Shown: positions 461 to 9,483 of the stretch, in pieces
How the letters are laid out: every line of letters starts with the position of its first letter
Numbering within the stretch: position 1 is the first letter of the stretch
NCBI GenBank assembly: GCA_919901895.1
Contig: CAKKQI010000411.1
Location: 1 to 13,479, forward strand
Length of the DNA stretch: 13,479 nt
Direction of reading: 5' to 3'
Origin: Candidatus Brocadiaceae bacterium
GTDB taxonomy: Bacteria; Planctomycetota; MHYJ01; JACQXL01; CAKKQI01
Program-made: the position numbers and the translations under genes
Notes under the pieces: generated by a model
Seen by the model: the letters and a program-made list of their open reading frames with translations, nothing else
The model's database searches: none
What the model was told of the DNA's origin: nothing

Positions 461-504
461 TTGACATAATTTGCTTATGTAGACCAATTGGACTACATTA
501 TAAT
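461..504 (+). promoter_or_regulatory. Putative promoter/operator region of the antitoxin-asd gene
   Basis: The 88-bp gap before the gene contains TTGACA (461-466) and TATAAT (499-504), and a 22-bp near-perfect palindrome at 477-498 (ATGTAGACCAA / TTGGACTACAT, one mismatched pair). The two hexamers are 32 bp apart, too far to pair as one sigma70 promoter, and TATAAT is only 3 bp from the ATG at 508, so the exact promoter is unclear. The palindrome is a good candidate operator. Phd/YefM antitoxins are known to repress their own promoter by binding such palindromes, and the encoded N-terminal domain is of that family. Confidence 0.45.
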
Positions 505-507
505 AAT

Positions 508-690
508 ATGAAATTTGTAAATGTCCGTAACCTTCGGATTAATGCCTCCCGGGTTATTAGAAAAATTAAACAGGAAGATATTATTGTTACCCGCCGGGGC
601 AAACCGGTCGCCGCTCTTATCCCTCTAAACGAAAATATGATGGACGAGTTTCTGAAATTACGCAAATCAACTCGGTCGCAAAAAAATAAA
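508..690 (+). other. Phd/YefM-type antitoxin domain fused in frame to Asd
   Basis: The first 60 or so codons encode a short antitoxin-like DNA-binding domain with the family pattern: a leading strand (MKFVNVRNLR), a helix (INASRVIRKIKQE) and a DIIVTRRGKPVAALIPL hairpin. No toxin gene (RelE, Doc, PIN) is visible nearby, so it is an orphan. The frame runs on into Asd with no stop. An A7 tract at 680-686 sits at the end of the domain; with one more A the frame would end at once in TAA, giving a stand-alone antitoxin of about 60 residues. Either a true fusion, a slippage site or a sequence error. Confidence 0.7.
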
Positions 691-1797
691 ACTAATTATC
701 AGATTGATCGTCAGATCGGAGCAAAGGTGCTAAAGAAAAAAAATATAAATGTCGCCATTGTGGGAGCCACCGGGGTGGTCGGACTGGAACTGTTAAAGAT
801 ATTAGCCGAACGTCGGTTTCCCATAAAAGAACTGAGGTTGGTTGCTTCAGAGCGTTCGGCCGGTAAAACAGTTAGGTTTAAAGGGGTTAGGTGTCCGATT
901 AAAGGTTTAAGGGGGAATTCATTTCAAGATATAGATATTGCATTTTTCTGTGCCGGCAGTTCGGTCAGTAAAACCTGGGGGCCGGTGGCCGTAAAACATG
1001 GTGCCATCGTCATAGACAAAACCGCGGCCTTCCGGATGGATAAAAATGTTCCGTTGGTCGTACCTGAAGTTAATGGCGAGATCCTTAAAAATCACCGGGG
1101 TATTATTTCCAGCCCCAATTGTTCTAGCATTCCGCTGGCGATGGTTTTAAAACCGCTTCATAATTACGCCCGCATAAAAAGAGTAATTGTATCAACCTAC
1201 CAATCCGTTTCCGGCGCCGGCCTAAAAGCCATTGCTGAGATGGAACAGGAGACAAAACGTATTCTTAACCGATTACCGACGAAGCGAAGCGAAGTCCCGA
1301 CAAATGTCGGGATTACTGATTACCGATTACGTAAAACGAAAATCTTTCCTCACCAGATTTCCTTTAATGCCATCCCGCAAATACCCCAATCCAATGCTTT
1401 CTGCGAGGATAATTATACGGATGAAGAAATTAAGGTTATTAAAGAAACCGGGAAAATAATGGGTAACAACTCTATAAAAATCAGCGCGACCTGTGTGCGC
1501 ATACCGGTTTACCACGGGCACAGCGAATCGGTTAATATTGAATTTGCCAGGCCGGTCTCACCGGCCAAGGCAAGACAGATTTTATCAAAAGCACCGGGAC
1601 TTCAAGTCCTTGACAATCCGGGCAAGCAATTATATCCGACCGCCGTTGAGGCCGCGGGTAAGGATGAGGTTTTCGTCGGTCGAATCAGAATAGATCGGAG
1701 CGTTAAATATGGTTTGAATCTCTGGTTAGTGGGCGATAACATCCGCAAAGGCGCGGCTCTTAATGCCGTTCAGATTGCAGAATTACTCTTAAAATAG
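508..1797 (+). CDS. asd: Aspartate-semialdehyde dehydrogenase with N-terminal Phd/YefM antitoxin-like extension
   Basis: Asd makes L-aspartate 4-semialdehyde from aspartyl phosphate with NADPH, the branch point to lysine/diaminopimelate, threonine and methionine. Residues about 80-92 hold the Rossmann NADP motif (VAIVGATGVVG); the catalytic Cys is C205 in SSPNCSSIP; FPHQISFN and RIPVYHGHSE are family signatures, the latter with the acid/base His. Residues 1-60 are instead a Phd/YefM antitoxin (INASRVI, DIIVTRRGKPVAALIPL), an unusual fusion. A GTG at 727, preceded by GGAG at 718-721, would give a normal Asd in which the catalytic Cys is residue 132, as in the family, so asd may be translated from its own internal start. 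About 16-20 residues before KTKIFPHQ come from a palindromic insertion (1271-1326). The TPR gene follows after 18 bp. The Asd assignment is firm; whether the antitoxin is expressed as a fusion is open. Confidence 0.93.
   Translation: MKFVNVRNLRINASRVIRKIKQEDIIVTRRGKPVAALIPLNENMMDEFLKLRKSTRSQKNKTNYQIDRQIGAKVLKKKNINVAIVGATGVVGLELLKILAERRFPIKELRLVASERSAGKTVRFKGVRCPIKGLRGNSFQDIDIAFFCAGSSVSKTWGPVAVKHGAIVIDKTAAFRMDKNVPLVVPEVNGEILKNHRGIISSPNCSSIPLAMVLKPLHNYARIKRVIVSTYQSVSGAGLKAIAEMEQETKRILNRLPTKRSEVPTNVGITDYRLRKTKIFPHQISFNAIPQIPQSNAFCEDNYTDEEIKVIKETGKIMGNNSIKISATCVRIPVYHGHSESVNIEFARPVSPAKARQILSKAPGLQVLDNPGKQLYPTAVEAAGKDEVFVGRIRIDRSVKYGLNLWLVGDNIRKGAALNAVQIAELLLK
718..729 (+). promoter_or_regulatory. 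Internal ribosome binding site and GTG start for asd proper
   Basis: GGAG at 718-721 is followed after 5 bases by GTG (727-729) in frame with Asd. Translation from here gives VLKKKNINVAIVGATGVVG, the usual Asd N terminus. By contrast the ATG at 508 has only AT-rich sequence before it and no Shine-Dalgarno match. This supports independent translation of Asd. Confidence 0.55.
1271..1326. repeat. Palindromic insertion inside the asd coding frame
   Basis: A perfect hairpin TCCCGAC (1295-1301), loop AAAT, GTCGGGA (1306-1312) lies between two direct copies of GATTACCGA (1271-1279 and 1318-1326). Between the hairpin and the first copy is a short GAAGC-type repeat. The encoded residues (roughly LPTKRSEVPTNVGITDY) have no counterpart in ordinary Asd, where the ILN segment runs almost directly into the KxxxFPHQI block. 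The insertion preserves the frame. Confidence 0.7.
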
Positions 1798-6517: not shown

Positions 6518-6907
6518 ATGACCCAGATTAAAATTACCGTCCGGCATATGAATATTACCGAAGACCTTAAAAATTATGCCCTGGCTAAGGCGGATAAATT
6601 AAGCAAGTATTTTGACCGGTTGAATAAAATAGAAGTGATTCTTGACCATAATAAAAATAATTTTAGCGCCGAGATGATTATTTCGGCTCCCCGGGGAGCA
6701 ACGGTGGTCGGGCACGTTTCCGATACCTCCTGCCAGGCGGCTCTTGATTTCCTGACTGATAAAATGGAACGTCAATTGACGAAATTGAAAGAAAAAATGA
6801 AAATGCACCGGCGGTTAACTAAAGTTGACCGGATGGGCACCCAAGGTCCGGTGGTCGAACAGGAAAAAGAGGAAAGTGGAGGATTGGAGCAGCATGATTG
6901 GTATTAA
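6518..6907 (+). CDS. hpf: Ribosome hibernation-promoting factor (HPF/YfiA family)
   Basis: A 129-residue protein of the HPF/RaiA family, which binds the 30S decoding centre and inactivates ribosomes in stationary phase or starvation. Residues 1-100 match the beta-alpha-beta-beta-beta-alpha fold: ITVRHMNITEDLKNYALAKADKL, then FDRLNKIEVILDH and AEMIISAPRGATVVG, then the second helix with a basic end (MERQLTKLKEKMKMHRR). The acidic tail of about 27 residues has no clear long-HPF dimerisation domain, so it is a short-type HPF with an extension. AGGAG at 6506-6510 precedes the ATG. Placement next to PtsN-like EIIA is common in bacteria (rpoN-hpf-ptsN clusters). Confidence 0.93.
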   Translation: MTQIKITVRHMNITEDLKNYALAKADKLSKYFDRLNKIEVILDHNKNNFSAEMIISAPRGATVVGHVSDTSCQAALDFLTDKMERQLTKLKEKMKMHRRLTKVDRMGTQGPVVEQEKEESGGLEQHDWY

Positions 6908-6912
6908 TGATC

Positions 6913-6980
6913 TGATTACACCGATGGAAGATAGGTTATACCGATTATCTGAAAACGGTCTTTTACTATCTGTGTAATCA
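6913..6980. repeat. Inverted pair of GTGTAATC-type repeats in the hpf-EIIA gap
   Basis: TGATTACAC (6913-6921) and GTGTAATCA (6972-6980) are perfect 9-bp inverted repeats flanking about 50 bp. The core octamer matches the repeat before truA (2963-2970, 2986-2993). The pair may form a long weak stem upstream of the EIIA start, or be the ends of a small repeat element. Confidence 0.5.
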
Positions 6981-6991
6981 TTTAATAAAAA

Positions 6992-7000
6992 GGGGGGGGG
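6992..7000 (+). promoter_or_regulatory. G9 tract directly against the EIIA start codon
   Basis: Nine consecutive G residues end immediately before ATG 7001 and probably serve as the Shine-Dalgarno site, with effective spacing set by tract length. Change in length by slipped-strand mispairing would alter translation of the EIIA gene without changing its frame. It could also be a miscounted homopolymer. Confidence 0.6.
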
Positions 7001-7474
7001 ATGAAATTCGCTGATTTTATTCATAAAACGGCTATTATTAAAAACCTGAAATCTAAAGATAAGAAAGAAGGCATTAAGGAGATGGTGGAATGTATTAAAA
7101 ATGCTTACAAGTTGACTTCCCCTAAAATAACCGATATTGTTGAGTCGTTAATGAAACGTGAAACGGTTGGCAGTACCGGAATTGGCGGTGGAGTGGCTGT
7201 GCCTCACGCGAAGATACCTGGTTTGAAAAATATTATCGGTTCATTTGGCCGTTCTGCGGCTGGTATTAATTTTAATGCAATTGATGGGGGACCGGTCCAT
7301 CTGGTTTTTGTAATTCTGGCGCCGCCGGAACAGGAATCAGATTATCTGCAGGCGCTCCGGCGTGTTTCTCAATCTATCCAGCAGGCAAATTTTTGCCGAT
7401 TCCTGACAGAATCTAAAGATATAAAAAGTATTATTGATATTTTCAATGAATACGACGAGACGGTTAGATGTTAG
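7001..7474 (+). CDS. PTS EIIA protein, fructose/PtsN type
   Basis: A 157-residue stand-alone EIIA domain of the fructose/mannitol/nitrogen (PtsN) family (PF00359). The phosphorylatable His is H69 in GGVAVPHAKIPGL, following the signature RETVGSTGIGGG. It would accept phosphate from HPr. There is no attached or adjacent EIIB/EIIC, so a regulatory role like PtsN (nitrogen/potassium/stress signalling) is more likely than sugar uptake. The family's usual 'DG.PVHLVFVILAP' and 'HLQALRRVS' motifs are present as GGPVHLVFVILAPP and YLQALRRVS, with Tyr where many members have His. The gene follows hpf and its end overlaps the HPr gene by 7 bp. Confidence 0.92.
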   Translation: MKFADFIHKTAIIKNLKSKDKKEGIKEMVECIKNAYKLTSPKITDIVESLMKRETVGSTGIGGGVAVPHAKIPGLKNIIGSFGRSAAGINFNAIDGGPVHLVFVILAPPEQESDYLQALRRVSQSIQQANFCRFLTESKDIKSIIDIFNEYDETVRC

Positions 7475-7737
7475 TGGAGAAAAATATAAAAATCATTAAT
7501 AAATTGGGTATCCATGTCAGGCCGTCCACGCAGATTGCCGACATCACCAACAAACATCAGTCAAAAATTGTTTTCATTAAAGACGGTTTGGAAATAAATG
7601 CCCGAAGCATCATTGAACTGCTTACTCTGGCGGCCGGTTGTAATGCCGATATTACCATCAGGGCTGAAGGAGACGATGCCGAGGCTGTAGTTAATGCGGT
7701 CATCAAGTTAGTAGAAAGTAAATTCGGAGAAGAATAA
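7468..7737 (+). CDS. ptsH: Phosphocarrier protein HPr
   Basis: An 89-residue HPr that carries phosphate from Enzyme I to EIIA. The active-site His is H16 in NKLGIHVRPSTQ, next to R18. S47 in NARSIIELLTLAAG lies at the position of the regulatory Ser46 that HPr kinase/phosphorylase modifies in many bacteria, with the following hydrophobic helix and AAG turn intact. The ATG at 7468 overlaps the EIIA stop; a GTG at 7474 would also give a typical N terminus (MEKNIKI), and I cannot decide between them. Enzyme I starts 3 bases after the HPr stop, so the two are translationally coupled. Confidence 0.95.
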   Translation: MLVEKNIKIINKLGIHVRPSTQIADITNKHQSKIVFIKDGLEINARSIIELLTLAAGCNADITIRAEGDDAEAVVNAVIKLVESKFGEE

Positions 7738-7740
7738 CTG

Positions 7741-9483
7741 ATGGAAATTAAAAAAGGGATTGGGGTGTCACCCGGGATCGGCATTGCCAGAGCATTCGTT
7801 CTGGATAGTGAAAAATACCGGATTCCTTTGCGTTACGTCAATGAAAAGGATATTAAAAACGAAATAGAACGTTTCGAAGAAGCAGTTCGTAATGCTACCA
7901 AAGAACTTGAAAATATCCGCAAACGGTTTTTACGTCGTTTTAGAGATGATGCCACTCCGATCGTTGAAGGGCATATCAAGATGCTTCAGGATGAGCATCT
8001 TAAAACGCAGATCCTTGAATTTGTTAAAAATAATAAATATTCCCCTGAATACGCTGTTTCGCGGGTGTTTCGCCGTTACGTCAAAACCCTTTCCGGTAGT
8101 AATGATCCTTTATTTACCAACCGGATCCAGGATATTAATGATATTGAACGGCGTCTCTTAAAAAATTTACTTGAGGAAAGACGTGAAGAATTAACCGATT
8201 TAACCGAACAGGTTGTTCTGGTTGCTCATGACCTTACCCCAACCCAGACGATTGCTCTTGATCGCCATAAAATTAAAGGGTTTGCTACCGATGTAGGCGG
8301 ACGAACTTCGCATACGGCGATCATTGCCCGGATGCTGGGTATTCCGGCCGTGGTTGGGCTTAATAATATCAGTTTTGATGTTTCCGGCAGCGATACTATT
8401 ATCGTGGACGGTCACAACGGTATCGTTATTACCAATCCGGATGAAGAAACCGTCAAAAAATACGCGGCGATGGGGGAAAGTTTTAGCATTTTTGAGAAAA
8501 AATTAGTTGATGAACTTAAAAACCAGCCGGCGGTCACAAAAGATGGCTATGAAGTTTCTATTTACGCCAATATTGAATTGCCCCAGGAAATACAATTGGC
8601 TTTAAAATACGGTGCTAAAGGAATTGGTCTTTTACGGACGGAATTTCTTTACAATACGCCGCAGCGCCTGCCGATCGAACGGGAACATTTTGATATCTAT
8701 AAAAAAATAGCCGTTCAGTCCGGAGAGAAGGAAGTCGTTATTCGCACGCTGGATTTGGGAGCCGATAAGATGGAAGTCAATAACGGCAGTAAAGAAAAAA
8801 ATCCATTCCTGGGATGCCGGGCGATCCGGCTTGCTTTCCAGCAACCGCAAGTTTTTCGGACCCAGCTGCGCGCCATTCTGCGTGCTTCAGAATACGGTAA
8901 TACCAGTATCATGTTTCCGATGATTTCTTCTATGGACGAATTAATTAAGGCAAAAGATATGCTGGCCGAAGTTAAAAATGAGTTAAGGGCTGATAAAATT
9001 CCTTTTAACGAAAATATCAGGGTTGGTATTATGATTGAGGTTCCTTCGGCGGCCCTGATTGCCGACCTGCTGATTACTCAGGTTGATTTTTTCAGTATTG
9101 GGACAAACGACCTGATTCAATATACCCTGGCGGTCGACCGGGGTAATGAACGCGTGGCGTCGCTTTACCAGCCCACTCATCCCGCCGTGTTAAGATTGAT
9201 TAAAAAAGTTATTGACGAAGGAGCCAAACATCATAAAACCGTGGCGATGTGCGGCGAGATGTCCGGCGACTGGCTTTATACCATTCTTTTGCTGGGTCTG
9301 GGGTTGAAAGTATTCAGTATGGCGCCCATCGTTATTCCGGAAATTAAAAAAATTATCCGTTCGGTTACTTATGCGGAAGCGAAAAAAATTAGTAACGAAG
9401 TGATGTCATTCCAGAATGCCCAGGAAACATTAGATTACCTTAAAAAATATACGGCTCAGATCCTACCCCAGTTTTCGTCATAA
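7741..9483 (+). CDS. ptsI: PTS Enzyme I (phosphoenolpyruvate-protein phosphotransferase)
   Basis: A 580-residue Enzyme I that autophosphorylates from phosphoenolpyruvate and passes phosphate to HPr. The swivelling His domain holds H191 in GGRTSHTAIIAR; the PEP-binding barrel has GIGLLRTEFLYN (near residues 295-306), the catalytic Arg region VIRTLDLGADK, the metal site IMIEVPSAAL and FFSIGTNDLIQYTLAVDRGNE, and the acid/base C504 in CGEMSGD. It starts with the usual IKKGIGVSPGIGIARAF and has no N-terminal GAF domain, so it is the canonical type and not PtsP/EI-Ntr. Length and motif spacing are normal. It stands with HPr and EIIA as a minimal phosphorelay. Confidence 0.97.
   Translation: MEIKKGIGVSPGIGIARAFVLDSEKYRIPLRYVNEKDIKNEIERFEEAVRNATKELENIRKRFLRRFRDDATPIVEGHIKMLQDEHLKTQILEFVKNNKYSPEYAVSRVFRRYVKTLSGSNDPLFTNRIQDINDIERRLLKNLLEERREELTDLTEQVVLVAHDLTPTQTIALDRHKIKGFATDVGGRTSHTAIIARMLGIPAVVGLNNISFDVSGSDTIIVDGHNGIVITNPDEETVKKYAAMGESFSIFEKKLVDELKNQPAVTKDGYEVSIYANIELPQEIQLALKYGAKGIGLLRTEFLYNTPQRLPIEREHFDIYKKIAVQSGEKEVVIRTLDLGADKMEVNNGSKEKNPFLGCRAIRLAFQQPQVFRTQLRAILRASEYGNTSIMFPMISSMDELIKAKDMLAEVKNELRADKIPFNENIRVGIMIEVPSAALIADLLITQVDFFSIGTNDLIQYTLAVDRGNERVASLYQPTHPAVLRLIKKVIDEGAKHHKTVAMCGEMSGDWLYTILLLGLGLKVFSMAPIVIPEIKKIIRSVTYAEAKKISNEVMSFQNAQETLDYLKKYTAQILPQFSS

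Follow-up and report, generated by a model that had tools for sequence, protein, structure and literature searches.

Genes and gene order of the locus

The window, that is, the whole stretch of 13,479 nucleotides that was analysed, is one entire contig (C411) of the source genome, which is a draft of 2.5 Mb in 509 contigs with 93% completeness. Behind the remainder of a MOSC gene it carries a single open frame in which a Phd/YefM antitoxin domain is read into aspartate-semialdehyde dehydrogenase (Asd), followed by genes for a TPR protein, truA, cvpA and a glycosyltransferase (features around the fusion are given in Table 1). The sequence-only reading had described an antitoxin domain continuous with Asd and no toxin partner in view, and both statements were borne out: the frame is open throughout, both parts score above their Pfam and NCBIfam cut-offs, and the next gene is that of the TPR protein. 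Further downstream, 6518-9483 holds a row of four genes, which we take to encode a ribosome hibernation factor, PtsN, HPr and PtsI by resemblance, and all four were matched in L047, L048 and L049.

Table 1 Features of the fusion gene and of the region in front of it (positions in the window)
Feature	Position	Strand	Remarks
MOSC-domain protein, C-terminal part, cut by contig end	3-419	+	Pfam MOSC, 38.3 bits
TTGACA, -35-like	461-466	+	18 nt before GTAG, vs 29-33 nt in 8/9 relatives
CATAAT, preceded by TGA, possible extended -10	465-470	+	Consensus match only
Imperfect palindrome ATGTAGACCAATTGGACTACAT, candidate operator	477-498		10/11 pairs, GTAG-N10-CTAC type, as in relatives' operators
TATAAT between candidate operator and ATG 508, putative alternative -10	499-504	+	
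Phd-Asd fusion ORF	508-1797	+	429 aa, single open frame
Phd/YefM DNA-binding and dimerisation domain, without toxin-binding tail	508-672	+	Residues 1-55
Linker, not clearly alignable to antitoxin tail or Asd	673-726	+	Residues 56-73, about 18 residues
GGAG, Shine-Dalgarno-like	718-721	+	5 nt before GTG 727
Asd from probable native GTG start	727-1797	+	356 aa
In-frame insert in variable Asd loop, repeat dispersed in source genome	1268-1330	+	About residues 262-285

Among the asd neighbourhoods of ten relatives (L042-L051), the MOSC gene was found directly upstream of asd in two, ending 2 nt ahead of the start of asd in L044 (same family as the source genome) and 128 nt ahead of it in L042 (same taxonomic order). 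Both showed the row MOSC-asd-TPR-truA-cvpA-glycosyltransferase of the window without phd in between, so in this lineage MOSC and asd belong side by side and the Phd piece is an addition between them. L047-L051 had truA and more downstream genes in common with the window, without MOSC, and L043, L045 and L046 had asd alone in common with it. A Phd match occurred in none of the ten neighbourhoods.

Domains of the fused protein

In Pfam, PhdYeFM_antitox (PF02604) matched residues 1-42 with 32.8 bits (cut-off 29.8), and Semialdhyde_dh and Semialdhyde_dhC matched residues 81-195 and 214-414, both above cut-off; in NCBIfam, phd_fam (TIGR01552) scored 24.4 bits (cut-off 20.8) and the asd_B equivalog 449.5 bits (cut-off 324.2) on the same frame. 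With a domain model built without the window, the Phd domain scored 79.5 bits, while nine separate relatives, each left out in turn from a model of the same type, scored 66.1-98.9 bits and the best of 50 shuffles of the window domain reached 4.3 bits. Sequence matches of the Phd part in the PDB were VapB46 (E 3e-4) and, weakly, P1 Phd (E 0.16-0.77). The AlphaFold model of the whole protein was confident for most of Asd and had a pLDDT of 31-35 for residues 1-40, for which the alignment contained no Phd relatives. Judged by these matches, a DNA-binding domain is attached to an intact enzyme.

Separate antitoxins aligned convincingly with the window domain to about residue 55, and past this point the toxin-binding C-terminal tail was not recognisable in the alignment with them. 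The linker that follows includes a run of seven A (680-686), where a sequencing error or slippage may have occurred. The fused Phd domain is the only one above cut-off in the source genome, where a second match fell below it. Third-position GC of the Phd part was 0.418, which is like that of seven window genes (0.373-0.475) and compares with 0.509-0.891 in the nine relatives, so the piece may have resided here for long or may have come from a low-GC donor.

The Asd part and its start

The sequence-only reading had pointed to an internal GGAG-GTG start at 718-729, and we found it present, in frame (GTG 727-729 is codon 74) and with a spacing of 5 nt. In 26 of 29 related Asd proteins (P0002-P0030) the start lay 8-11 residues before the motif G[AG]TG, which the other three did not contain as written; counted from GTG 727 the distance is 12, which is 1-4 residues from the relatives' start, so the native start should be GTG 727 itself or lie only a few codons away. 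Free Asd is thus probably also made from it. The proposed sizes of 47 and 39 kDa for the two forms agree with 429 and 356 residues, and the proposal of two products from one gene gained plausibility from the position of GTG 727 near the relatives' start, the fused form being a putative product. No ribosome site was found before ATG 508. Such a site was present at 5 of 13 other gene starts of the window (tpr, hpf, ptsN, hpr, ptsI) and missing at the other eight, so its absence is common here.

C205, Q232, R331 and H338, presumably the catalytic Cys, Gln, Arg and His of Asd, were invariant across 24 aligned Asd sequences, and only one asd was found in the source genome at its 93% completeness, so the gene presumably still makes the enzyme. 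The insert in the variable loop of Asd has copies elsewhere in the source genome (87% identity over 63 nt in C395, 74% in C279 and 84% over 37 nt in C252), and other inserts occupy the same loop in relatives, for example 'LKLQIPNLKFQISH' in L042. It recalls coding palindromic elements.

Candidate operator and related toxin-antitoxin modules

A palindrome just upstream of the frame had been reported in the sequence-only reading as a site that the fused domain could bind. It is present with 10 of 11 pairs, and one of 200 shuffles of the 60 upstream nucleotides had an equally good one. Its core GTAG-N10-CTAC occurred once in the window, compared with a mean of 0.03 in window shuffles (5/200 had one copy). 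The palindrome is likely to be an operator for the Phd domain.

With a profile made from the window domain and three relatives, matches were obtained in 66 of 392 genomes of the phylum, and we examined 28 non-window matches with loci; L075, L083 and L084 (partial match or stop), L036, L038, L041, L052-L056 and matches without loci were outside this set. GTAG-N10/12-CTAC was found at most 60 nt upstream of the start in 8 of the 13 relatives scoring above 65 bits (L057, L035, L040, L058, L060, L061, L062 and L067, with N12 in L035 and N10 in the rest) and in none of the 15 examined relatives with fewer bits. L057 and L034 denote one locus, and a single genome contributed L057, L040 and L085. L085 had GTGG instead of GTAG, and L063-L066, which belong to one family, had no such site; L063, L064 and L065 have GTTACACTATTGTGCAAC in common about 55 nt upstream of the antitoxin start, which is unlike GTAG-N10-CTAC, and their best palindrome scores were reached in 73, 7 and 70 of 200 shuffles. 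In a generic palindrome test, the number of shuffles as good (of 200) was 0 for L035, L058, L060 and L067 and 1 for the window, and 14 for L085, 24 for L040, 64 for L061, 138 for L057 and 200 for L062, where the palindrome scored in L057 and L062 was another one. At a threshold of 1 in 20, the sites of L040, L057, L061 and L062 were no better than shuffles as generic palindromes; the case rests on the common arms and position of the sites. The pairing of domain and palindrome therefore received comparative support, and asd may be regulated through it.

Downstream of the antitoxin, a RelE/ParE-like toxin gene was found in all nine relatives examined, a count that excludes L063-L066. The toxin gene overlapped the antitoxin gene in L034, L035 and L040 and was placed directly downstream by similarity in L058, L060, L061, L062, L067 and L085. 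The toxins of L034 and L035 passed the Pfam ParE_toxin cut-off; the L040 toxin was just below the Gp49 and ParE cut-offs, as was its antitoxin for PF02604. As a toxin follows every one of these relatives, the piece in the window resembles the opening part of a toxin-antitoxin module.

The exact pattern TGTAGNCCNNNNGGNCTACA was present at two places of the source genome, the window and the inside of a purine nucleoside phosphorylase gene, where a perfect 24-nt palindrome, TTTGTAGTCCAATTGGACTACAAA, lies at L184 2166-2189 (G000:C492). It shares a 20-nt core with the window operator except for one base and may be a chance occurrence or a second putative binding site. When up to two mismatches were allowed, the pattern gave 5 matches and its reversed control 10, and we therefore claim no operator regulon.

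Promoter

In eight of the nine relatives, TTGA lay 29-33 nt before GTAG, and L062 had TTGCCA. Their best promoter pairs had a spacer of 15-17 nt and 8-12 of 12 matches, and the start codon followed the operator by 11-16 nt (28 in L060). The -10-like hexamers of the pairs ended 0-6 nt before GTAG, so the operator probably covers the transcription start in these modules. Single -10 boxes of the relatives were matched by shuffles in 5-37% of trials.

The window differs from this arrangement. Its TTGACA is 14 nt closer to the operator than in most relatives, with no -10 at the right distance. The best promoter-like pair near the operator was ATGAAA (441)-18-CATAAT with 9 of 12 matches, which scored no lower than those of five of the nine relatives (L035, L040, L057, L058, L060), and transcription from this CATAAT would possibly start at the operator. 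The TATAAT behind the operator would start transcripts past ATG 508, just inside the gene. Scanning 300-900 on both strands gave five promoter-like sites where 1.8 were expected, and asd transcripts may also arise by read-through from the MOSC gene. No Rfam family matched the window at gathering scores, and the folding of 465-740 was no better than that of shuffles (z -0.67, 48/200 as good). We regard the promoter as the point that casts most doubt on a functional autorepressor translated from ATG 508.

Searches for further fusions

As the sequence-only reading had proposed, we searched other genomes for the same fusion, and no second one was found, so it was a singleton in everything searched. 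Residues 1-80 were compared with 5.8 billion proteins, and among 64 candidates, picked by whole-protein length, the one match was the protein itself; the Phd part alone gave no match in a protein search. A profile of the fusion and 11 Phd relatives scored 8000 proteins; all of the 120 matches listed had Asd domains, and among these 120 only that of the window had PF02604. Close Asd proteins among them were named 'Planctomycetes bacterium' and 'Candidatus Brocadiia bacterium', which points to the phylum Planctomycetota for the source genome. With the whole protein, 52 of 59 genomes were matched (source genome included), and both parts occurred in one match in none of the 59 besides the source; Phd-part matches in G013, G033 and G058 were on contigs other than that of asd, and no asd was found in G042. 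Within the class, the Phd part was matched in 7 of 23 genomes (source included) and was fused to asd in the source alone.

A first scan of genome contigs for the fusion gave nothing. After a second scan, which yielded 588 Asd relatives of which the top 80 were kept, the Phd model was applied to 119 asd loci (L002-L030, L042-L051 and L086-L165, the first two sets overlapping) and matched once, in L150, on the opposite strand and apart from asd. PF02604 was present in 175 of 392 phylum genomes. No fusion was seen in the 19 long frames inspected among the matches listed there (17 of at least 220 residues plus two shorter ones), which all ended 75-101 residues from the match start and were ordinary short antitoxins. 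Phd relatives were not confirmed in viral contigs, and no Phd-Asd fusion was found in the titles and abstract beginnings of the open-access literature.

Proposed origin and alternative explanations

The domain and the operator are both intact in the window and occur together in relatives, which supports the capture of a module. We propose that the 5' part of a Phd/YefM-RelE/ParE module, comprising operator and DNA-binding domain, was inserted between the MOSC gene and asd, and that, in whatever order, the toxin and the toxin-binding tail disappeared and the remaining domain became joined in frame to asd. The fused protein would be made from ATG 508, dimerise through its Phd domain, bind the palindrome and hold down asd transcription, while unfused Asd would come from GTG 727, so that the enzyme level would feed back on its own gene in the manner of a PutA-type trigger enzyme. 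That the Phd piece originates from a toxin-antitoxin module is highly probable. That the captured head in front of asd gave a self-repressed, PutA-like trigger enzyme beside free Asd has, in our view, a chance somewhat short of even, and that Asd represses itself through the Phd domain after the module lost its toxin, one gene giving both a fused and a free form, is put forward more tentatively still; for autoregulation by the fusion as such our confidence lies between these two levels. It is a speculation that Asd substrates or the oligomer state change DNA binding.

Counted against a working autorepressor are the missing ribosome site at ATG 508, the promoter spacing unlike that of relatives and the singleton fusion, besides the four relatives' sites no better than shuffles as generic palindromes and the low model confidence for residues 1-40. 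The first three points, together with GGAG at GTG 727 and the loss of toxin and tail, speak for a non-functional remnant, in which the antitoxin head would be a leftover in frame by chance, ribosomes would start at GTG 727, the fusion would be rare or absent and nothing would be regulated. Against such a remnant stand a domain score within the range of the nine separate antitoxins, 219 nt without a stop and an operator with 10 of 11 pairs, but a recent insertion could also explain all three. We therefore consider the remnant a close rival of the trigger enzyme, though one that we would rather doubt than accept.

Alternatively, a stop between the two domains might be hidden by a single-base error of sequencing or assembly in the linker, with the run of seven A as one possible site, so that phd would simply precede asd as a separate gene. 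One of the other two forward frames has stops at 509, 518, 626, 638, 653 and 731 and the other at 528, 540, 558, 567, 687, 693 and 705, so such an error would split the fusion through the stop at 687 or that at 731, and the many contigs of the draft leave room for it; the fused protein is, however, recorded on two contigs in the protein collection, which may share reads and are perhaps not independent, and we judge two genes to be unlikely. It is very unlikely that the fused domain still serves as antitoxin for a RelE/ParE-like toxin of the source genome, tying toxin control to the Asd level: six PF05016 loci exist on other contigs, four of which (L174, L175, L178, L179) are weakly similar (30-33% identity) to the relatives' toxins, but the tail that should follow the DNA-binding domain is not recognisable and no toxin is adjacent. 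Least probable of all is an assembly chimera of two loci, which the position of the fusion 508 bases from the contig end might suggest, since MOSC and asd adjoin in L042 and L044 and both flanks thus belong together.

A common view of toxin-antitoxin modules is that they are selfish elements or serve defence. If the captured-module proposal is true, the ready operator-repressor pair of a broken-up module was taken over for housekeeping control, which would show a one-step origin of trigger enzymes.

Comparison with known systems

The DNA-binding part of PutA is a ribbon-helix-helix. Trigger enzymes have been defined with BirA, NadR, PepA, PutA and PyrH of E. coli as examples, and PutA acts on the adjacent spacer/promoter region to repress its own gene (PMC8249747). 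The window fusion would be alike in that a metabolic enzyme also controls transcription, whereas its DNA-binding part is of the Phd/YefM type and its enzyme is biosynthetic. The N-terminal domain of Phd dimerises and binds the operator while its C-terminus binds Doc, and YefM operators contain TGTACA (PMC4803016), unlike the GTAG-N10-CTAC core of the sites in the window and its relatives. Compared with the nine Phd/YefM-RelE/ParE modules (L034=L057, L035, L040, L058, L060, L061, L062, L067 and L085), the fusion has the same DNA-binding domain, and the operator type is the same in eight, but it has no toxin and no tail, is joined to an enzyme and differs in promoter spacing and ribosome site. 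YefM-YoeB and ParE-like-Phd/YefM fusions exist (PMC11980606) and likewise contain Phd/YefM within a longer protein; their partner is a toxin, whereas in the window it is a housekeeping enzyme. BzdR was proposed to have turned from enzyme to regulator by gaining a DNA-binding domain (PMC3602430), which resembles the gain considered here, but BzdR is a dedicated regulator, whereas the enzyme part of the window fusion looks complete.
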